Assembly: GCA_017396555.1 (NCBI GenBank)
Contig: JAFQLS010000044.1
Coordinates: 18,599 to 82,598 of the forward strand
DNA: 64,000 nt
Source of the DNA: Lachnospiraceae bacterium
GTDB taxonomy: Bacteria > Bacillota > Clostridia > Lachnospirales > Lachnospiraceae
Direction of reading: 5' to 3'
Made by a program: the position numbers and the translations under genes. Of the stretch, positions 5,471 through 39,441 are shown in pieces (position 1 is the stretch's first letter; each line of letters starts with the position of its first letter). Under the pieces are notes generated by a model. That model was not told the origin of the DNA and ran no database searches. It worked only from the letters and a program-made list of their open reading frames with translations.

Positions 5471-7207
5471 TTATTTAATCATATTGTTAATCATATCAAC
5501 TACTTCCTTACCAAGTTCTGCTGATTTAGTATTAGCATCCTCAAGCGATGTACCCTTAACACCAAAGTAGAACTTAACCTTAGGCTCTGTTCCCGATGGT
5601 CTTACACATAACCACACACCATCTTCCATATCATAATACAATACATTTGAAGAAGGAAGACCTGTTGGTTTTACTTCACCTGTTGAAAGTTCTGTGATTG
5701 TACCCTTCTTATAATCTCTTACTGAAAGAACCTTATATCCACCAAACTCTGTTGGTGTATTATTTCTAAGAGTCTCTAATATTTCCTGTATCTTCTGTAA
5801 ACCTTCAATTCCTTTTAAAGTAATTGTCTTAATATCATCCTTATAATAACCATATCTTTCATACATAGCTAACATAGCATCCCAAAGAGTCATATTCTTT
5901 GTTTTGTAATATGCTGCTGCTTCACAAAGTGCCATAGTTGCAACAATTGCATCCTTATCACGTGCATGAGTACCAACAAGACATCCATAGCTCTCTTCAA
6001 AACCAAAAAGATATGTTCCCTTACCAGACTCTTCAAATCCCAAAATCTGTTGGCCGATGAATTTAAAACCTGTAAGAACTTCTATAAGCTTTGCACCATA
6101 ATATTCTGCAATAGCATCTGCCATATTAGTAGTAACTATAGTCTTTATCAATGCACCATCTTCTGGCACACCCATCTTTTCCTTTATCTGTGAAATCTCA
6201 TAATCTGCAATAAGACATCCAGACATATTACCTGTAAGTGTAATATATTCACCTGTTTTAGAATCCTTCACATACACACCAAGTCTATCGGCATCAGGGT
6301 CAGTTGCAAGTACTATATCGGCATCCTTTTCCTTTGCAAGCTTAAGCGCAAGTTCAAATGCTTCTGCTGCTTCCGGATTAGGATAGCTTACAGTTGGAAA
6401 TTCTCCATCCGGTAACTCCTGTTCCGGAACAACATATACATTCTCAAAACCAATTTCCCTAAGAATTCTTCTTGCCGGAAGATTTCCTGTTCCATGTAAA
6501 GGTGTATATACAATCTTAATATCCTTCTGTGCTTCCTTGATTGCCTCAGGATTCTTAACCAGCTTCTTTAACTCTTCAATATATCTGTCATCTACCTTAG
6601 AACCGATAACTTCATATAAACCGGCTGCCATAGCTTCCTCTTTAGAGATAGTTTTTACAGTAGCAAAATCCTTTACTGCCTTAACCTCATCCATAATATT
6701 CACATCATGAGGCGGTGTTATCTGTGCACCATCCTCCCAATAAACCTTATATCCATTATATTCAGGCGGATTATGGCTCGCTGTTATATTAATACCGGCT
6801 ATACATCCAAGTTCTCTAACTGCAAATGATAATTCAGGAGTCGGTCTCAAACTCTCAAATATATAAGCCTTAATTCCGTTTGCTGCAAGACATACTGCTG
6901 CCTCATTAGCAAATTCCGGTGACATTCTTCTTGAGTCAAATGCTATAACAACACCTCTTTCACTTCCGCCAACCTTATTAATATAGTTAGCAAGACCTTG
7001 AGATGCTTTCCCTACTGTATATATATTCATACGATTAAGCCCGGCACCGATGATACCTCTCAATCCAGCTGTACCAAATTCAAGCTCCTGATAGAATCTT
7101 TCTTTAATTTCCTTATCATTCCCTCTTATACTCTCAAGCTCTGCTTTAGTTGTCTCATCAAAATGTGGATTACTAAGCCATTCCTCGTATTGTTCCATAT
7201 AATTCAT
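5471..7207 (-). CDS. pgcA: phospho-sugar mutase (alpha-phosphoglucomutase)
   Basis: Interconverts glucose-1-phosphate and glucose-6-phosphate (or mannose phosphates) in the cytoplasm. All four functional motifs are present: the phosphoserine loop TASHNPPEYNGYK, the Mg-binding DPDADRLG, the sugar-binding FGFEESYG and the phosphate-binding RPSGTEPKVKF. Length (578 residues from the chosen start) fits PgcA-type enzymes of Firmicutes. I place the start at 7207 (MNYMEQYEEW) because AAAGGAGA lies 6 bp before it; a start at 7228 has no such site. The gene symbol follows the Bacillus enzyme and substrate preference is inferred. Confidence 0.88.
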   Translation of the reverse strand: MNYMEQYEEWLSNPHFDETTKAELESIRGNDKEIKERFYQELEFGTAGLRGIIGAGLNRMNIYTVGKASQGLANYINKVGGSERGVVIAFDSRRMSPEFANEAAVCLAANGIKAYIFESLRPTPELSFAVRELGCIAGINITASHNPPEYNGYKVYWEDGAQITPPHDVNIMDEVKAVKDFATVKTISKEEAMAAGLYEVIGSKVDDRYIEELKKLVKNPEAIKEAQKDIKIVYTPLHGTGNLPARRILREIGFENVYVVPEQELPDGEFPTVSYPNPEAAEAFELALKLAKEKDADIVLATDPDADRLGVYVKDSKTGEYITLTGNMSGCLIADYEISQIKEKMGVPEDGALIKTIVTTNMADAIAEYYGAKLIEVLTGFKFIGQQILGFEESGKGTYLFGFEESYGCLVGTHARDKDAIVATMALCEAAAYYKTKNMTLWDAMLAMYERYGYYKDDIKTITLKGIEGLQKIQEILETLRNNTPTEFGGYKVLSVRDYKKGTITELSTGEVKPTGLPSSNVLYYDMEDGVWLCVRPSGTEPKVKFYFGVKGTSLEDANTKSAELGKEVVDMINNMIK

Positions 7208-32155: not shown

Positions 32156-33251
32156 AATACGACCTCCTTAACAAAGCAACCGGCTCTTTTTTGTTTATAA
32201 CCATTGACAATATTATGGAAGATATGGTTATAGTTGCAAAATAGGCGAGGGTTAATTTTGCAATAGTAGTGACATTGAATACCATATTAAAATATGTGAA
32301 CGCCTCATCAAACCACAATTTTTTGCTTATGTAAAATATTCCACCACCCAGCATATAAGAAACGGTTGTTAAAATAAATATTTCTGCAAACAGGTATACG
32401 CACATACTTCTATATGAACAGCCACATATCTGTATAATGGCATTTTTCCTTCTTCTCTTTTCTATAATGCTATTGTATACAATACATATATTAAGCGAGG
32501 ACACTAACCCTATTAATATCACCACAATATTCATAGAATTAATCTCTTTCTTTCTAGATGCCTTATCAAGATATATCTCTTCTAGCTCAAGTAATTCTTC
32601 TCCATATACACTTTTCAGACTCTCAACGAAATGTTTGTAATCACTTTCTGTTGGTCTTTTGCTAAAACAGACACCCAGATGTACTATGCTTTTAATTTTA
32701 TCCGGCATTGAATTAAGTGGAACATATACTATATCTGTTCCGCCAGGAATATCTGGATCAATACCTATTATTTCATATTCTTTCCCACTTATTGTAACCT
32801 TTTGTCCAATTTCAAAATTCGAAGTACCAACGGCTATAGCTTCTCCGCTAATATAATCCTCATGAGTAAATATTTTTGATTGAGTATCACTACCCAAGTA
32901 CTCTGGAATCGTAATCTTACCATTTTCATATCCATTATAGGATATAACTCCAAAATCCTCCCCGAAACCCAAGATAGATATGCCCTCTATCTTATCGTCT
33001 GACTTCTCCATAACTTTACCAATAACTTTTCTCATATTATTAACATCTCTTGTTTTATCCTCAACAATAAAACCTGTGCTAAAAACATAAGTATCCAGCG
33101 ACATATCTGCCCTCTCCTCCTGATAATTTCGAAGCAGACCATATACAAAGAATACTGAAAATGCTGATAAAATCTGGAGAAAAATAAAGACAAAGAAAAT
33201 ATCTCTTGAAGTTGTAAAAAAATCCATGAAATTCTTTTTAATAACGTACAT
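32148..33251 (-). CDS. FtsX-like ABC permease (first of two)
   Basis: A 367-residue permease with the same topology as its neighbour: a transmembrane segment at about 15-38, an outer domain, and three segments between about 245 and 355, ending NKKEPVALLRRSYYV. First gene of the ABC operon, with its own promoter. GGAGGAGG precedes the ATG. Divergent from the recombinase gene. Confidence 0.78.
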   Translation of the reverse strand: MYVIKKNFMDFFTTSRDIFFVFIFLQILSAFSVFFVYGLLRNYQEERADMSLDTYVFSTGFIVEDKTRDVNNMRKVIGKVMEKSDDKIEGISILGFGEDFGVISYNGYENGKITIPEYLGSDTQSKIFTHEDYISGEAIAVGTSNFEIGQKVTISGKEYEIIGIDPDIPGGTDIVYVPLNSMPDKIKSIVHLGVCFSKRPTESDYKHFVESLKSVYGEELLELEEIYLDKASRKKEINSMNIVVILIGLVSSLNICIVYNSIIEKRRRKNAIIQICGCSYRSMCVYLFAEIFILTTVSYMLGGGIFYISKKLWFDEAFTYFNMVFNVTTIAKLTLAYFATITISSIILSMVINKKEPVALLRRSYYV

Positions 33252-33285
33252 ACTTGCCTCCTCCTAACACTTTTTGTTGTATTCT

Positions 33286-33314
33286 ATTGTAGGGATTTAA
33301 TTATTTAGATTCAA
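33286..33314 (-). promoter_or_regulatory. promoter of the FtsX/ABC operon
   Basis: Minus-strand TTGAAT (33314-33309), 17-bp spacer, TACAAT (33291-33286), 35 bp before the start codon at 33251. Confidence 0.6.
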
Positions 33315-33389
33315 TTACACAAACGTTTAAGATTTTATTAAGATGATATTATTAAAATAAATATCATTTATAAAGGAGAGCAATATACA

Positions 33390-34322
33390 ATGAACGATGT
33401 AAAAAAAACTACAAAATCTTATCTTTGCTATTGTAAAAATCAAAAAAGGCTTGATGATAAAACGATAAAAGCATATAAAGCCGACCTCTATCAATTTATT
33501 GACCATTTATCCTCAAATAGTATTCAAGATATATCTTCGGATGTTCTTGAACAATATATAGCATTACTTCATCAAAGCTACAAACCCAAAACTTCTAAAC
33601 GAAAAATAGCATCAATAAAAGCATTTTTTAAATATCTGGAATATAAGGACATTATTATTATTAATCCTTTTAACAAGCTCAATATAAAGTTTAGAGAGCC
33701 AATTATTTTGCCAAAAACAATACCTCTATCCACTATCGAAATTCTTTTATCAACTATGTATAAACAATTTTATTCATCTACTACCCTTCACAAGCAAAGA
33801 ACTTGTCTAAGAGATATTGCAGTCATTGAACTTCTATTTGCTACAGGAATTAGAATATCCGAATTATGTTCACTTAAAATAGAGGATGTAAATCTTCAGA
33901 CAAGAAGCATCTTGATATTCGGTAAAGGAAAAAAGGAGCGATTACTACATATAGGAAATGATGATGTTTTCAAGATATTAAATGAGTATTATGAAGAGTT
34001 TTTTACAGAGATTAATCTATGTAGACATTTTTTTGCAAACACATCCGGTTTGCCTCTGTCAGACCAGAGTGTTCGTCGTATGATACGTAAATATTCCTCT
34101 CTTGCATCAATTGATATGCGTATTACACCTCATATGTTTAGACACACCTTCGCCACAAGCCTCCTTGAAGCTGATGTGGACATTCGCTATATTCAAGAAA
34201 TGCTAGGACACAGTTCTATTAATGTCACGGAAATATATACGCATGTTGCACTTTCAAAGCAGATTGATATTCTGAGTACTAAACATCCTAGGAAGGGATT
34301 TAGGGTAAGAAGTGACGGATAA
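33390..34322 (+). CDS. tyrosine recombinase (XerC/D-like integrase)
   Basis: A 310-residue site-specific recombinase with an N-terminal SAM-like core-binding domain (about 5-90) and a C-terminal catalytic domain. Catalytic residues are visible: Arg in ATGIRISELCSL, Lys in FGKGKKERLL, HxxR in PHMFRHTFATS, His in LGHSSINV and the nucleophile Tyr in EIYTHVAL. GGAGAG lies before the ATG. Its stop codon forms the first bases of the 45-bp inverted repeat that flanks the next three genes, so it probably acts on these repeats. It is complete and shows no sign of decay. Confidence 0.92.
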   Translation: MNDVKKTTKSYLCYCKNQKRLDDKTIKAYKADLYQFIDHLSSNSIQDISSDVLEQYIALLHQSYKPKTSKRKIASIKAFFKYLEYKDIIIINPFNKLNIKFREPIILPKTIPLSTIEILLSTMYKQFYSSTTLHKQRTCLRDIAVIELLFATGIRISELCSLKIEDVNLQTRSILIFGKGKKERLLHIGNDDVFKILNEYYEEFFTEINLCRHFFANTSGLPLSDQSVRRMIRKYSSLASIDMRITPHMFRHTFATSLLEADVDIRYIQEMLGHSSINVTEIYTHVALSKQIDILSTKHPRKGFRVRSDG

Positions 34323-34346
34323 TTTTTAGTTATCCGTCACTTTTTG
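34312..34346 (+). terminator. terminator after the recombinase gene, overlapping the inverted repeat
   Basis: GTGACGGATAA-tttttag-TTATCCGTCAC followed by TTTTTG: a perfect 11-bp stem. Its left arm is outside the 45-bp repeat (except the last four bases) and the right arm inside it, so the hairpin exists only on the recombinase side and would remain after inversion. Confidence 0.85.
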
Positions 34347-34363
34347 AGTGTTCAATTAGAAAG
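34319..34363 (+). repeat. left 45-bp inverted repeat of the invertible cassette
   Basis: A 45-bp sequence, beginning ATAATTTTTAGTTATCC and ending TTCAATTAGAAAG, whose exact inverted copy is at 37594-37638. It starts at the recombinase stop codon and ends 21 bp before the TIR-GNAT start codon. Confidence 0.95.
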
Positions 34364-34384
34364 AAGAAATAAGAGGTTCAAGAT

Positions 34385-35863
34385 ATGTTTGATGTTTTTA
34401 TATCTCATTCGTCAAAAGATAAAGAAGAAATAGTATATCAATTAGTCCAGCAATTAGAGCGACGAAATATAAATGTATGGTTAGATGCAAATGAAATATT
34501 AGCTGGCGACACAATATTGAGTGCCGTTGAAAAGGGAATATCATCGGCACTATGTACAGTTCTTATTATTACGCCTGCTTTTTTTGAAAGTTTTTGGACC
34601 CCGATAGAAATTGGTCTTACTTTAAATAAACACAGTGAACATATTATCATTCCGATTTTGTGTAATGTAGCCGAAGCAGATATTGCACAAAAATTTCCTA
34701 TGCTATTAACTTTAAAATATCTTAAACTTGATACTTATAACATTCATAAATGCGCAGAGGAGTTATGTAATAATATTATTAAAATAAAGGAAAAAAAACT
34801 TGCAAACTATACGGAAATCTCATTTAAAAAAGCGGTCAAAAAGTTTAATTCTTGCGATACGCCTGCTGCTAATACTGTAAGCATATTAGTAAGTGAATAC
34901 GAACAAATAGTTGAGATTAATGTTCGTGCTGCTGTTTTACATGCATCTCAAATCTCTAATACCATTATTAGCGACCTATATGAGCGATTGCCGATTAAAG
35001 AAACATCTGTTGATACAATAATTGACAAATTAAACATGATAAAGGCATCTTCCATAGGGTTAAATGAAAACATATATGAACATTTAAAACTTTTGAGTAC
35101 GCCTGCATTAGATACAAGTATGTCCTTGCTTACTAATGATAGCGACAGAAAAAAACTTGCAGAAATGAGCATTACAGCAGTTCTTGAATGGTATTCAAAA
35201 TATTTATTGCATAATAAAATAATTCCACGTGACAGTTTTGAAATTGTATGGTCAGATGAATTAACGTATAACGATTTTGTCACAATGTATGAAATTGATA
35301 AGCTTGTACTTAGAGAAGATTTAATTGCCCCACCACAAATTACATATGCGTGGTATCAATACAACAATTATACTCATATTGCAATCCGTAGTACTATAAC
35401 AAATAAAATTGTTGGTTACTTTACTGTTCTTCCGGTTACGGATCAGCTTTATTTAGAAATTCAATCAGGATACTTTAAAGATAATGATTTGACTACGGAT
35501 AATTTACGAAAATATGATGTACCAGATTTTTATAAATTATATATTGCCTGTGTTTGCATACATCCAGATTATCAAAACACTACTGCTTTTAATAAATTAT
35601 ATAATGCATTACTTAAAATGATGATGGAATTAGCAGTTGAAAGGGAGATATATGTTACTAATATTATTACAGAAGCATCCACCTTACAAGGTGAAAAATT
35701 TTGTAAGATATTAGGTTTAAAGCGTTTACTTAATACACAAATTGATACAAAAATATATGGTGCAACATTATTACCACCCTCTTGGCAGCTTAGATCTTCT
35801 TTTGGAAGTAAATTGATGAAGTATTATAAAGAAAAATACGAGGAATTAAAAGAACTTTTCTAA
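34385..35863 (+). CDS. TIR-GNAT fusion protein
   Basis: A 492-residue protein. Residues 1-130 are a TIR domain: FDVFISHSSKDKE at the N-terminus, WLDANEILAGD, and SFWTPIEIGLTL, in which Glu75 sits at the place of the catalytic Glu of NAD-cleaving TIRs. A helical stretch (about 135-285) follows. Residues about 290-460 resemble an N-acetyltransferase (GNAT): YIACVCIHPDYQNTTAFNKL corresponds to the acetyl-CoA loop, though degenerate, and GEKFCKILGLKRL to the following motif. TIR proteins of bacteria often act in phage defence. The gene starts 21 bp inside the left repeat with AGAGG upstream and no promoter of its own visible. Confidence 0.85.
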   Translation: MFDVFISHSSKDKEEIVYQLVQQLERRNINVWLDANEILAGDTILSAVEKGISSALCTVLIITPAFFESFWTPIEIGLTLNKHSEHIIIPILCNVAEADIAQKFPMLLTLKYLKLDTYNIHKCAEELCNNIIKIKEKKLANYTEISFKKAVKKFNSCDTPAANTVSILVSEYEQIVEINVRAAVLHASQISNTIISDLYERLPIKETSVDTIIDKLNMIKASSIGLNENIYEHLKLLSTPALDTSMSLLTNDSDRKKLAEMSITAVLEWYSKYLLHNKIIPRDSFEIVWSDELTYNDFVTMYEIDKLVLREDLIAPPQITYAWYQYNNYTHIAIRSTITNKIVGYFTVLPVTDQLYLEIQSGYFKDNDLTTDNLRKYDVPDFYKLYIACVCIHPDYQNTTAFNKLYNALLKMMMELAVEREIYVTNIITEASTLQGEKFCKILGLKRLLNTQIDTKIYGATLLPPSWQLRSSFGSKLMKYYKEKYEELKELF

Positions 35864-35866
35864 AAT

Positions 35867-35908
35867 AACAAAGCGGTATCAGATTTCGAAATCTGATACC
35901 GCTTTGTT
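35867..35908. terminator. perfect palindromic bidirectional terminator
   Basis: A 42-bp perfect palindrome (AACAAAGCGGTATCAGATTTC and its complement) between the converging genes, ending in TTTGTTTATT on the plus strand. It insulates the two halves of the cassette. Confidence 0.9.
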
Positions 35909-35923
35909 TATTGGATATTTACA

Positions 35924-36448
35924 TCATCTACCCCTTGAGAGTCTTAACAATAAATTTTCAAAGTTAACGGATACAGATTTCATTTCTTGCATCGCCTCTT
36001 CTTGGGTTAATTTGTCTTTAGACAATATGATAGTAGCACAACTTATTTGGTTATCTGAATCGTATGACAACCAATATCCATGAAGTTTATTCCTCATGTT
36101 ATATGCACTGTAATCTAATCGAATGCAAGATGTTTCTTTTCTTGATTCAATTGATGTACTTTGAATCATTAAAAGATGATTATTTTCTATTTGAATTGTA
36201 CCTCTATATGTTAATCCATTTTCATATAATGTGGTTTTGTAAAGAGAAAATATACCTTTATTAATTTCAACTAATCCTTCAAATATTTTAGGACAGGAAT
36301 TATCTGTCATTAAAGAATAAGAATACCATTGGCTACACAAATTATCATGTTTTGTTCGCTGATATATGTATTTTATGACTTTTATAGTATAAGGTAATAG
36401 TAAACCAATGATTGCGCTTATGATAGAACCAAGAATTAAATCTTTCAT
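35924..36448 (-). CDS. membrane-anchored beta-rich protein of unknown function
   Basis: A 174-residue protein with one N-terminal transmembrane segment (about 4-26), a basic stretch (KVIKYIYQRTKHD) and a soluble, probably cytoplasmic domain of many predicted beta-strands (QWYSYSLMT ... YRGTIQIENNHLLMI ... HGYWLSYDSD). The plan of a membrane anchor plus a small beta-barrel recalls Cap15-type CBASS effectors, which however have two spans; this is only an analogy. The gene lies 15 bp after the radical SAM gene and is co-transcribed with it. It is inside the inverted-repeat cassette. Confidence 0.6.
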   Translation of the reverse strand: MKDLILGSIISAIIGLLLPYTIKVIKYIYQRTKHDNLCSQWYSYSLMTDNSCPKIFEGLVEINKGIFSLYKTTLYENGLTYRGTIQIENNHLLMIQSTSIESRKETSCIRLDYSAYNMRNKLHGYWLSYDSDNQISCATIILSKDKLTQEEAMQEMKSVSVNFENLLLRLSRGR

Positions 36449-36463
36449 AATTACCTCCTCAAA

Positions 36464-37549
36464 TCATGGTGTAAATTCCGTATATTCCAATATCCAATGT
36501 TCCAACTCTTTTCGAAAAGAGGCGTTTTGATTAATTATTTGTTCTAATCGTGATTTATTATCTAAAAATAATTTAAACATAGCTTGGTTCATTTGACAGT
36601 AATCATTAATATGTTCTCTTGAGAATTCAATATGCATTCGACCACATCTTCCCATACATATTGAACGATAAATACAGTCCCTACACTTAAATTCTTCCAG
36701 TTTATGATGGGGTAAAGTTATGCCCTTACTAATATCTCCCATATAATGGGCATTCCCTTCAACGTTATCACTACATGCATAACATTTTCCATCCGTTTGT
36801 ACATAAACCATACCTCGACTATAGCCACACGAAAATTCATTGTCATCACGATCATGGAAAAACATAAATTTTAATACAGCCATAAATGGAATATATTTAA
36901 ACATAATTCCTTGTTCGAGATAATTTATCCAATATTCAAAAGTCCTTTGTATTTCATATATATAGGTATTTTTAAATATTTTTGTATTGTTGAATTCAGG
37001 GCAATTTTCTATTTGCCAATATACAAAATCAAAGAAATTACTTACTTGCAAAAGTTCTGTAAATATACTTGTTTTTTCTGTCACAGTCAAGCGGGCAATA
37101 ATAGGGATATCTCTCCTTGTTTTTATAGCCAAAGCATTATCAACAATTGTAGAAAAATAGCTTGGATATAATATATGGTGTGGAATTTTTTCATAATTTA
37201 TAGAAAACATAATAAGTGATAAATCATTTAAAATATTTTCTGGTAAAACATCCAGACGTAATCCATTAGTATGAAGAACAAATTTTAAAGAGTAAGTCGA
37301 TAGTTGCTTTTTTGCAATGTTAATAAGAGCTTCTATATCATCGTATTCCAATGAAGGTTCGCCACCAAAAAAATAAATTGAAATTTCATCATCATTGGTT
37401 TGTTTCTGAGTTCTTTTAATGAAATCTATAAGATTTTCATATGAATATGTAGGTTTTATAGGCAATTTATTTTTTTCGCAGTCTAATAAAACTGAGCAAT
37501 ATTCACACATTAAATTACAGTCATTTGTCATATATACAAAATATTCCAT
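36464..37549 (-). CDS. radical SAM/SPASM-type enzyme
   Basis: A 361-residue enzyme. Cys11, Cys15 and Cys18 (CNLMCEYC) would bind the radical-SAM [4Fe-4S] cluster; FFGGEPSLE (about 61-69) is the SAM-binding GGEP motif. The C-terminal part has several Cys (SCGYSRG, KCYACSD, CRDCIYRSICMGRCG) like a SPASM/twitch region for extra clusters. Such enzymes often modify peptides or proteins. No short precursor peptide is visible nearby; the adjacent 174-residue membrane protein or TIR-GNAT could be the target. AAAGGAGAAAGG before the ATG. First gene of the minus-strand half of the cassette, 45 bp inside the right repeat. Confidence 0.85.
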   Translation of the reverse strand: MEYFVYMTNDCNLMCEYCSVLLDCEKNKLPIKPTYSYENLIDFIKRTQKQTNDDEISIYFFGGEPSLEYDDIEALINIAKKQLSTYSLKFVLHTNGLRLDVLPENILNDLSLIMFSINYEKIPHHILYPSYFSTIVDNALAIKTRRDIPIIARLTVTEKTSIFTELLQVSNFFDFVYWQIENCPEFNNTKIFKNTYIYEIQRTFEYWINYLEQGIMFKYIPFMAVLKFMFFHDRDDNEFSCGYSRGMVYVQTDGKCYACSDNVEGNAHYMGDISKGITLPHHKLEEFKCRDCIYRSICMGRCGRMHIEFSREHINDYCQMNQAMFKLFLDNKSRLEQIINQNASFRKELEHWILEYTEFTP

Positions 37550-37593
37550 AGCCTTTCTCCTTTTGAATATACTTAATATTTTTTTACAAATTA

Positions 37594-37638
37594 CTTTCTA
37601 ATTGAACACTCAAAAAGTGACGGATAACTAAAAATTAT
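37594..37638 (-). repeat. right 45-bp inverted repeat of the invertible cassette
   Basis: Exact inverted copy of 34319-34363. It lies 11 bp beyond the stop codon of the ABC permease gene to its right and 44 bp before the radical SAM start codon. The bases flanking the repeat differ from those on the left, so the identity ends exactly at 45 bp. Confidence 0.95.
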
Positions 37639-37649
37639 TGTTTACTTTT

Positions 37650-38702
37650 TTAGTATAAGTTATTTTTTCCTTTTAAGCGAACAAACAATATCATATTGCC
37701 AATAACAACATACACCAAAACACTAAATAAAATATTAGGAACTCCACATACTGTATGATAGCCATTAAAACACCGATATGCGCCAAGCCCCTGTGCCAAT
37801 GCTAAATCTCCGATAACTACACCCAATGAGTCATATATAAACTCAGGTATAAATACAAGTGCCATAACAATTAAATATGTACCCATATTTGTATGTACTT
37901 TCTCTGCAACAAACATAATTATAAATCCAACAATAACTGCAAAAAAGCATCTCAAAGCAATAGTCGCTAACACATACTGACCAATAGTTAGGTTATATTC
38001 CATATTCTCCATAATCAGCAGGCTTTTTATTGATGCATCCATATGCGATATTCCAAATTTGAGATATTTTACCGTAAATTCAATTAAAGAAAATAACAAT
38101 GCAAAAAACATAGAAATACTTATATTACAAATCAATCTGCAAATAAACAATTTTTTTCTTCCATTCTTGGAACTCTTAATCATATTTACTGTTCCTGAAT
38201 AATAATCATCCGTATATATAGAAGTAATCAGAACTAACATAACTATAATCAAAAATATATCTACCTTCATATTTGAAATATAGTCTATATGATATAAGTC
38301 AAAAAAGTATTCAACCTGTTCATCTTGCTTTTCGTAATATTCTGATTTTTGGACTATATATTCAACAGTCTTTAGTCTATTCTTTGCTGACTTTATATCA
38401 TCCGATATAACCTTATACTCTTTTGCATCTATTTTATCATTTTTGAATTCTTCCTCATATACTTGTGCATTTTCTAACAATTCTTGAAATCTATTATATT
38501 CAGAAACAATAAAGACGTGTTTTTCCTTTGTATATTCTCCCTCCAGTTTTTCTGAATAATATTCATAAACATCTGCATTGAATCCCTCAGGCATATCTAT
38601 ATCCAATTGCATGGAAAAGACTATTTTCAATACGAGGCAAATAGCTATAATAATAAAATTCTTTTTGTTGGAAAATATTTTAAAAAATTCATATTTTAGC
38701 AT
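37650..38702 (-). CDS. ABC-2 type permease (second)
   Basis: A 350-residue membrane protein: a transmembrane segment near residues 17-35, an outer/coiled region to about 150, and five further hydrophobic segments (about 155-340). ABC-2 permease plan, as in antibiotic or peptide efflux and immunity systems. Start at 38702 (MLKYEFFKIF) has AAGGTG 6 bp upstream. Last gene of the operon that begins with the 42678 secreted-protein gene. Confidence 0.75.
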   Translation of the reverse strand: MLKYEFFKIFSNKKNFIIIAICLVLKIVFSMQLDIDMPEGFNADVYEYYSEKLEGEYTKEKHVFIVSEYNRFQELLENAQVYEEEFKNDKIDAKEYKVISDDIKSAKNRLKTVEYIVQKSEYYEKQDEQVEYFFDLYHIDYISNMKVDIFLIIVMLVLITSIYTDDYYSGTVNMIKSSKNGRKKLFICRLICNISISMFFALLFSLIEFTVKYLKFGISHMDASIKSLLIMENMEYNLTIGQYVLATIALRCFFAVIVGFIIMFVAEKVHTNMGTYLIVMALVFIPEFIYDSLGVVIGDLALAQGLGAYRCFNGYHTVCGVPNILFSVLVYVVIGNMILFVRLKGKNNLY

Positions 38703-38712
38703 AGGCATCACC

Positions 38713-39441
38713 TTATTGTTCTTCATCCTTATAAAAATGCATATACACATCTTCCAAAGTTATATTTTCATCTTCACTGACTAATTTTAGAATACCATCT
38801 TTTGTATCCATGCCAATCAGTTCGCCTTTTTTAATCAGTATAATATATTGTGCTATCATATCCACATCCGATACAATGTGTGTAGAAAGAATAATTATTT
38901 TGTCCTTTGCCAGCTCACTTATTACATTTCTAAAATTTATTCTTTCCTTAGGGTCAAGTCCAACTGTCGGTTCATCAAGAATTAATATATCCGGATTTCC
39001 AATAAGTGCTATTGCTATACCTAACCTTTGCTTCATTCCACCTGAAAAGGTTTTTACCTTGTCATTGATGGAAGCCTGCAAATTCACTTTTTCTAATATT
39101 TCTTTTACACTTTCTTTGATTTTAGTCTTTTCAAGCCCTTTTAATAACGCAAAATATTCGAGTGTATTTGCAGCCGTAAAATTCCCATAATAACCTACTT
39201 TCTGTGGAAGATACCCTATATGTCTTCTGTAATCATCACCTAATTTCTTAATAGGTTCTCCATCATAAAGAACTTCTCCTGAAGTTGAGTCTATTACATC
39301 GGCTATGATATTCATAAGTGTTGATTTACCAGCTCCATTAGGACCAAGCAGCCCATATATTCCCGGCTCCAGAGTCATTTCAATATTATCGAGCGCTTTT
39401 TTATTTCCGTATATTTTACTAATATTTTTTAATTCTAACAT
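38713..39441 (-). CDS. ABC transporter ATP-binding protein (BcrA-like)
   Basis: A 242-residue ATPase with Walker A LLGPNGAGKSTLM, Q-loop LPQKVGYYG, signature FSGGMKQRLGIAIALIG, Walker B ILILDEPTVGLDP and H-loop LSTHIVSD. It belongs to the group serving ABC-2 permeases (bacitracin/lantibiotic export or immunity). It abuts the 39442 permease gene (stop and start adjacent). Confidence 0.9.
   Translation of the reverse strand: MLELKNISKIYGNKKALDNIEMTLEPGIYGLLGPNGAGKSTLMNIIADVIDSTSGEVLYDGEPIKKLGDDYRRHIGYLPQKVGYYGNFTAANTLEYFALLKGLEKTKIKESVKEILEKVNLQASINDKVKTFSGGMKQRLGIAIALIGNPDILILDEPTVGLDPKERINFRNVISELAKDKIIILSTHIVSDVDMIAQYIILIKKGELIGMDTKDGILKLVSEDENITLEDVYMHFYKDEEQ

Follow-up and report, generated by a model that had tools for sequence, protein, structure and literature searches.

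Phase variation is known mainly for bacterial surface structures and for restriction specificity. In the pilin segment turned by Piv in Moraxella and the tail-fibre segments of Mu and P1, where the coding segment itself is inverted, DEDD or serine enzymes swap versions of one protein, while the known RecV-type switches of Clostridioides difficile turn short stretches ahead of genes that carry a promoter or leader. In integrons a tyrosine recombinase lies beside a site where exchangeable cassettes of diverse content are taken up. Here we describe a locus in a 64,000-nucleotide stretch of DNA (the window) from a Lachnospiraceae bacterium (assembly GCA_017396555.1, contig JAFQLS010000044.1, positions 18,599 to 82,598), where a tyrosine recombinase gene adjoins a segment bounded by inverted repeats. 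An earlier note on this DNA had proposed a phase-variable switch between two effector programmes, probably anti-phage; the present analysis adds a recombination core, the likely promoter side, a recombinase family and the occupation of one locus by different whole cassettes. It is highly probable, in our judgement, that the segment is an invertible two-gene cassette flipped by the adjacent recombinase, the flip swapping which of its two units is favoured. The components of the cassette and its recombinase, in window positions, are as follows.

33390 to 34322, plus strand: tyrosine recombinase (Xer-like, 310 aa), presumed invertase; Pfam Phage_integrase 3.8e-41
34319 to 34363, plus strand: left arm of the 45-bp inverted repeat, perfect identity
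37594 to 37638, minus strand: right arm of the 45-bp inverted repeat, perfect identity
34317 to 34335, no strand: left (recombinase-proximal) recombination core GGATAA-TTTTTAG-TTATCC; arms 12/12, spacer equal to that of the right core inverted
37622 to 37640, no strand: right (distal) recombination core, inverted, spacer CTAAAAA; arms 10/12, spacer 7/7
34385 to 35863, plus strand: TIR-GNAT protein (492 aa), proximal unit, immune-like; Pfam TIR_2 2.2e-20
35924 to 36448, minus strand: 174-aa protein without convincing family match; hydrophobic N-terminus read from the sequence
36464 to 37549, minus strand: radical SAM/SPASM protein (361 aa), distal unit, facing the ABC operon; Pfam Radical_SAM 1.5e-9

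The anatomy is largely as the earlier note had described it. The 45-bp repeat is perfect, with 3,230 bp between its arms, the stop codon of the recombinase lies within the left arm, and two converging units occupy the interior; the TIR-GNAT gene starts 21 bp inside the left arm as claimed, but the radical SAM gene starts 44 bp inside the right one and not 45. The window thus holds inverted recombination sites with a matching overlap, as an inversion system should (arms 12/12 and 10/12, spacer 7/7), and the functional unit of the repeat is likely the 19-bp core GGATAA-N7-TTATCC rather than the whole 45 bp. In the host assembly (2.34 Mb in 57 contigs, 85% complete) the 13-mer AAGTGACGGATAA has three exact occurrences, all at the window locus, and its reversed control none. 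GGATAA-N7-TTATCC is found there with at most one mismatch in 12 places versus 5 for the reversed control, the right core with its two mismatches falling outside this search, and the sole exact copy is the left core. Positions 33000 to 38000 of the window gave no megablast match in the plasmid collection. The reading frame of the recombinase is intact, and its R, K, HxxR, H and Y, which we take to be the catalytic residues, align with those of XerD (1a0p). An assignment as XerC or XerD was rejected, the NCBIfam equivalog cut-offs being missed for both (XerD 234.3 against 329.6 bits, XerC 233.4 against 335.15 bits).

Inversion at such cores is seen between relatives (loci and genomes are numbered with L and G below). 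At L027 and L128 the flanks are collinear at 97–98% and the cassette is reversed at 95%, with breaks at the core; the outer junctions agree at 44/45 positions on both sides, and the inner ends agree at 42/45 and 40/45 when swapped versus 16/45 and 15/45 when unswapped. The recombinase of this pair is about 65% identical to that of the window, the cores likewise have arms of 10/12, and L128 lies in a single-contig genome (G340). Two plasmids of Aliarcobacter cryaerophilus, from M830MA (L161) and ATCC 43158 (L162), have flanks identical at 100% and 99.85% and a cassette identical at 99.91% but reversed, again with breaks at the cores; outer and swapped inner junctions agree at 60/60 on both sides, unswapped ones at 24/60. 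Both plasmids carry the same recombinase accession, about 44% identical to the window's recombinase. The large cassette gene lies in two overlapping frames in one of these plasmids and in one frame in the other (L161 1937–4407, L162 1429–3900).

Homologous cassettes also face either way with respect to the recombinase: SIR2-STALD/TIR (L016 and L022 versus L085), Mrr-AAA/glycosyltransferase (L027 versus L034), AAA/glycosyltransferase (L055 versus L081, the glycosyltransferase by Pfam), TIR/glycosyltransferase (L080 versus L069) and pentapeptide/ATP-grasp-radical SAM (L014 versus L042). Related genomes, which the earlier note had suggested searching for the opposite orientation, have therefore supplied it, within one locus (L027/L128 and the A. 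cryaerophilus plasmids) and between species; both orientations at the same locus are seen in these relatives only, and the inversion proposed in the earlier note is borne out at their cores, while the window itself shows one orientation. If the window's repeats were remnants of a single insertion and its cassette no longer moved, the one orientation resolved and the right-core arms of only 10/12 would follow naturally, but the 45 bp are still perfectly identical, the recombinase keeps its frame and the expected residues, and inverted relatives include the L027/L128 pair with cores of the same 10/12. We regard such an inert locus as very improbable and expect that inversion would occur in the window strain as well, presumably by the action of the adjacent recombinase.

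The core pair follows a rule across the recombinase family. A scan of genome contigs gave 214 relatives, of which the best 80 were kept (61–69% identity), mostly titled Lachnospiraceae or its genera, the titles being those of draft bins and some naming other families; among 397 family genomes searched, 29 had a match at 1e-115, the window's own included. Cores were sought at 110 loci, including one phage contig and the window, and removal of 12 duplicates (recombinase at least 98.5% identical) left 98; L128 was dropped here as a duplicate of L027, yet is used above as its inverted partner. Two genus relatives (L144, L145) and two viral loci (L151, L152) were left out of the analysis. At 31 of the 98 distinct loci the cores form an inverted pair whose 7-bp spacers are identical, and at one (L066) a direct pair, whereas 40 decoy arm motifs gave inverted pairs at a mean of 0.05 loci (maximum 1) and direct ones at 0.20 (maximum 2). 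The spacers differ from locus to locus and match within each locus, and so behave as a recombination overlap region should. The core consensus over 61 sites is TGANGGATAAT-N5-(A/G)TTATCCGT, in which 12 arm positions had been selected for and the others had not.

At 30 loci the contig stops no more than 210 bp past the recombinase, and 26 of these stretches hold a core; such ends are found at 30/96 loci on the 3′ side of the recombinase versus 2/96 before it (p 2.5e-7). Contig ends near cores are suggestive of mixed populations but no proof of them, because a long repeat alone can break an assembly: contigs C20 and C10 of G287 end in an identical 127 bp, as expected for the two flanks of one long-repeat cassette. 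The same test in G314 returned only the query's own contig. A quick tree of the 98 recombinases clustered no single class beyond shuffles (all classes jointly were as low in 12/200) and was not used. At L066 one core of the direct identical-spacer pair precedes the recombinase stop by about 4627 bp and the other follows it by 205 bp, so that the pair brackets the recombinase and could excise instead of invert. The loci L010 (1–1340) and L011 are largely collinear with a difference of about 2.7 kb right after the recombinase, and a hairpin sequence of L010 recurs inverted on both sides of its recombinase.

Thirty of the core pairs enclose bacterial cassettes, that of the window included; the remaining one belongs to the phage locus L090. 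Their core spacing is 2.1–6.7 kb; relative to the recombinase, 24 are on the 3′ side and 6 on the 5′ side. The outermost units are strictly convergent in 28/30, with an outward gene at one end in L078 and L081; for L055 the start of the minus-strand unit was set by hand, the called start being outside the core and that of the glycosyltransferase domain inside, and otherwise the count is 27/30. In the 28 convergent cassettes the start codon lies at a median of about 72 bp from the left core and 48 bp from the right one, and the 3′ ends of the two units overlap in 12 of the 27 measured.

A TIR, SIR2 or STAND-type protein is encoded in 20 of the 30 cassettes, STAND-type being assigned from AAA/NACHT/NB-ARC-type matches, with L055, L069, L080, L126 and L135 counted on scores below Pfam cut-offs and L136 and L140 on homology only. 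Seven cassettes have a pentapeptide-repeat protein (L139 by homology), and L012, L076 and L130 belong to neither class. Opposite the 20 immune-like proteins there is an enzyme in 17, namely a glycosyltransferase, ATP-grasp, radical SAM, SHMT-like PLP (pyridoxal phosphate) enzyme or alcohol dehydrogenase-like protein or carbamoyltransferase (by homology in L136, L138, L140 and, weakly, L143), and a Thoeris partner in 3. The two effector programmes of the earlier note, held to be probably anti-phage, are accordingly recognisable by domain as an immune-like protein facing an enzyme in 17/30 and as Thoeris-like proteins on both sides in 3/30, but in 10/30 neither arrangement is present. "Immune-like" is in this text a domain-based label, and PADLOC adds little to it beyond ThsA, ThsB and other TIR/SIR2 models. 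In the Eubacterium plexicaudatum cassette (L076 5200–6452) the SHMT-like gene is split in two reading frames.

In the window the immune-like partner is the TIR-GNAT protein, which aligns with bacterial TIR structures and has PADLOC matches to PDC-S66 (6.5e-26) and ThsB (1e-12), both covering the TIR part only; its GNAT part scores below the cut-off (Acetyltransf_1 2.2e-3, 18.7 against 20.7 bits). No relative was found at 1e-20 in the other 396 of the 397 family genomes. The protein may have an anti-phage role. The distal enzyme belongs to the radical SAM/SPASM class (PF04055 38.7 bits, cut-off 29.5; TIGR04085 SPASM 27.9 bits, cut-off 27) and was rejected as a prokaryotic viperin, scoring 39.8 bits with the NCBIfam model against a cut-off of 180; its PADLOC match to pVip (1.5e-10) covers residues 5–118 only, and no relative of the gene was found among the viral contigs. 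The 174-aa protein has no Pfam or PADLOC match and a single NCBIfam row at E 0.011, far below the cut-off.

The transcription of the two units may depend on the following features in and beside the cassette.

34307 to 34345, plus strand: strong hairpin at the 3′ end of the recombinase, possible insulator of the proximal unit; −21.7 kcal/mol, z −7.4
35867 to 35908, no strand: perfect 42-bp palindrome separating the two converging units, presumed terminator for both directions; z about −10 on each strand
37650 to 38750, minus strand: ABC membrane gene of the flanking operon (context, outside the cassette); open reading frame, candidate transcription source for the distal unit

The minus-strand ABC membrane gene ends 11 bp outside the right arm, the distance that the earlier note gave for its operon. 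The palindrome that it called a terminator is indeed perfect, but a consensus terminator scan listed neither it nor either core nor the left-core hairpin, and the label terminator therefore derives from folding. Promoter-like signals were scored with an approximate sigma-A matrix. Outside the distal core of 3′ cassettes the inward score exceeds the outward one in 17/23 (means 10.05 versus 7.14, p 5.5e-4), with shuffle p < 0.1 in 14/23; among the 13 distal sites scoring at least 10, the −10 box lies 4–9 bp from the core in 6 and 82–89 bp in 4. Immediately within the two cores the inward scores show no excess (p 0.19 and 0.51, 24 loci for each core), so that the relatives support the earlier statement that neither unit has an obvious promoter inside the repeats, and the 3′ end of the recombinase has a mean score of 7.34. 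Outside seven plasmid cassettes the best shuffle p of a promoter-like site was 0.10–0.11. A common reading of these signals would be a fixed outside promoter on one side of the cassette, the side depending on its layout, and in the window the distal unit (radical SAM and 174-aa protein) would then be the favoured one.

The mechanism that we propose is the following. The adjacent tyrosine recombinase would recombine the two inverted 19-bp cores, each with 6-bp arms and a 7-bp overlap, and so flip the 3.3-kb segment, both units of which would be read inward from outside the cassette. The distal unit, now the radical SAM and 174-aa proteins, would be read from the fixed flank, here probably by read-through from the ABC operon, a guess adopted because the window's promoter-like score on that flank lacks significance. 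For the proximal unit, at present TIR-GNAT, transcription would be limited to what leaks past the recombinase and its hairpin; by RNA folding the left core gives −21.7 kcal/mol over 39 nt and the right core −2.9, and the hairpin on the recombinase side may insulate TIR-GNAT. Inversion would exchange the favoured unit and leave a population in which cells in an immune-like state coexist with cells in an enzyme state, and cassettes would also be replaced as whole units at the same sites.

Several observations weigh against this model. The assembly of the window shows one orientation only, and the strain-level evidence comes from recombinases only about 44–45% identical to the window's; at 37 of the 98 loci there is neither a core pair nor a contig end on the 3′ side. 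Few PADLOC matches were obtained (11 families among 48 cassette proteins, none with more than three members), and four of ten further cassette proteins had no PADLOC match. The asymmetry between left and right hairpins is not general in relatives as an insulator (24 loci, p 0.22). Nine of the 23 distal promoter-like sites miss the shuffle threshold, and the best site in the 160 bp outside the window's right core scores 8.1 (shuffle p 0.22). Our confidence in the model is slightly lowered by two departures from the distal-promoter pattern: in four of the five 5′ cassettes (out of six) scored on both sides, L076, L084, L130 and L136 but not L061, the recombinase side is the better one, so a "distal" promoter is no rule for that layout, and the score upstream of the recombinase is higher away from the gene than towards it (sense higher in 5/24, p 0.0035), so that this matrix does not support a recombinase promoter. 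The away-facing signal is present upstream of the recombinase in the 24 3′-cassette loci, for example at window positions 33230–33389, and possibly belongs to divergent neighbours.

The Thoeris-like cassettes also fit badly with strict either/or expression. L085 encodes a ThsA (1.2e-179) and a TIR protein that matches ThsB (1.7e-13; best PADLOC match PDC-S66), L016 a ThsA (1.5e-100) and a TIR protein without a match to any ThsB model, and L022 carries SIR2_2, STALD and TIR_2 by Pfam, its PADLOC scan having been made only within a pooled set. Known Thoeris requires both proteins, and the halves lie on opposite strands in all three cassettes, which makes them awkward for the model and its most searching test; either exclusivity of expression is incomplete there, or the arming of the Thoeris pair is timed by the switch itself. 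These SIR2-STALD/TIR pairs, in 3/30 cassettes, together with the inheritance of pairs across phyla and a distance of 1 to about 112 bp between recombinase stop codon and left core in the majority of 3′ cassettes, across which read-through is possible, would be expected if promoters on both flanks expressed both units in both orientations, inversion tuned their ratio and the genes formed one system, such as a split Thoeris. We consider that arrangement unlikely, since in the 3′ cassettes the distal outer flank alone is enriched for promoter-like signal (mean score 7.3 at the recombinase 3′ end, no excess at the inner flanks) and the units are convergent, with overlapping 3′ ends in 12/27.

Relatives differ not only in the orientation of the cassette but also in its content. 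The Streptococcus salivarius plasmids SALI-10, ICDC2 and NU10 carry three unrelated cassettes at one plasmid locus, hypothetical/methyltransferase, PLP-enzyme/TPR and polyprenyl-synthetase/hypothetical, respectively, and on either side the inner edge of the repeat marks where homology is lost and regained (6202|7904, 4393|7904, 5895|7906); at this locus LAB813 is identical to SALI-10, and a plasmid of S. equinus nearly identical to NU10. A similar difference separates the cassettes of A. faecis and A. cryaerophilus M830MA, where homology breaks no more than about 25 bp from the cores. The same kinds of pair turn up in different phyla or families: NU10 resembles L012 (29% and 24%), SALI-10 resembles A. 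faecis (29% and 42%), and the Aliarcobacter ATP-grasp type resembles L070, L138 and L143 (25–29%). In the Lachnospiraceae the pairs L012/L015 and L020/L022 have both flanks in common and different cassettes, with less exact breaks.

Each of these facts would be expected if cassette exchange came first, in the manner of an integron, the inverted cores serving as docking sites for two-gene cassettes between molecules and inversion being a by-product. Clean inversions without exchange do occur, however (L027/L128, L161/L162), homologous recombination in the flanks and repeats could replace cassettes too, and the Lachnospiraceae pairs are imperfect witnesses, homology being back only 262 and 863 bp past the right core in L012/L015 and stopping at the recombinase, ahead of the left core, in L020/L022. 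No free cassette was seen, though no search aimed at free cassettes was made. We therefore think it somewhat unlikely that exchange is primary, and retain the invertible two-gene cassette as the preferred reading, with replacement of whole cassettes as an addition to it.

It is possible, and we put it forward only tentatively, that these loci are members of a general class of mobile cassettes that stands next to the integron, both flipping and exchanged as a unit at fixed loci. Such a cassette would be a convergent gene pair bounded by inverted tyrosine-recombinase cores, often an immune-like protein with a biosynthetic one or the halves of Thoeris, found in Bacillota genomes and in plasmids of Bacillota and Campylobacterota; a related phage recombinase would flip the end of a gene beside tail-fibre genes, and immunity would be held in a heritable either/or state versus a surface or metabolite enzyme. 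The phage case is L090 (7917–13688), a 126-kb contig with a recombinase of the same family and an inverted core pair, one core lying inside a gene that adjoins tail-fibre-type genes and has no PHROGs match; a fixed N-terminal part of about 338 residues leads in frame into either segment end, and the contig also carries ParA/ParB- and replication-type genes. The gut phage MT835475 (L156, an unannotated record) has an inverted ATAA-N7-TTAT pair with identical spacer at 5545 and 7688, upstream of a recombinase gene whose product shares 49.7% identity with the L090 enzyme.

At these loci proteins of TIR, SIR2 and STAND type, Thoeris halves among them, lie within an orientation switch in opposition to enzymes, and strains can differ in the cassette found at a given locus. 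Should expression depend on orientation, immunity in bacteria would be a bet-hedged, modular trait, and a recombinase with an ATAA-N7-TTAT pair and convergent genes would provide a search rule that could find new immune genes with their partners. Among the matches listed in a full-text literature search, with bioRxiv and most subscription journals outside its coverage, no title or abstract opening describes such cassettes, and a search of passages from PMC11892184 gave no match.

Among known systems, Thoeris is approached by the three relative cassettes with a ThsA-like SIR2-STALD protein and a TIR protein (L016, L022, L085). Unlike in Thoeris, the genes lie on opposite strands in an inverted-repeat segment, and the three proteins of the window cassette have no SIR2/STALD match (Pfam, PADLOC and NCBIfam; the SIR2-STALD ThsA type only). 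With integrons the locus shares a tyrosine recombinase adjoining sites with replaceable, varied cassettes, but the recombinase was rejected as an integron integrase (109.9 bits with the NCBIfam subfamily model, cut-off 265), and here inverted cores stand at both ends of convergent pairs. The RecV-type switches of C. difficile (PMC5903667) likewise combine a tyrosine recombinase, inverted repeats and phase variation in a gut bacterium of the Bacillota; unlike there, the genes themselves would turn in our locus and the promoter would stay. PMC12529663 ties DNA inversion to phage resistance, there via a serine recombinase: PinQ acts on the P segment of another prophage, e14, and the resulting chimeric protein blocks adsorption of phage T2. 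As in the segments of Moraxella Piv and of Mu and P1, a recombinase would flip a coding segment so that one alternative follows a fixed outside promoter, but here the enzyme is a tyrosine recombinase, the alternatives are two unrelated units, and different cassettes occupy one and the same locus in relatives.

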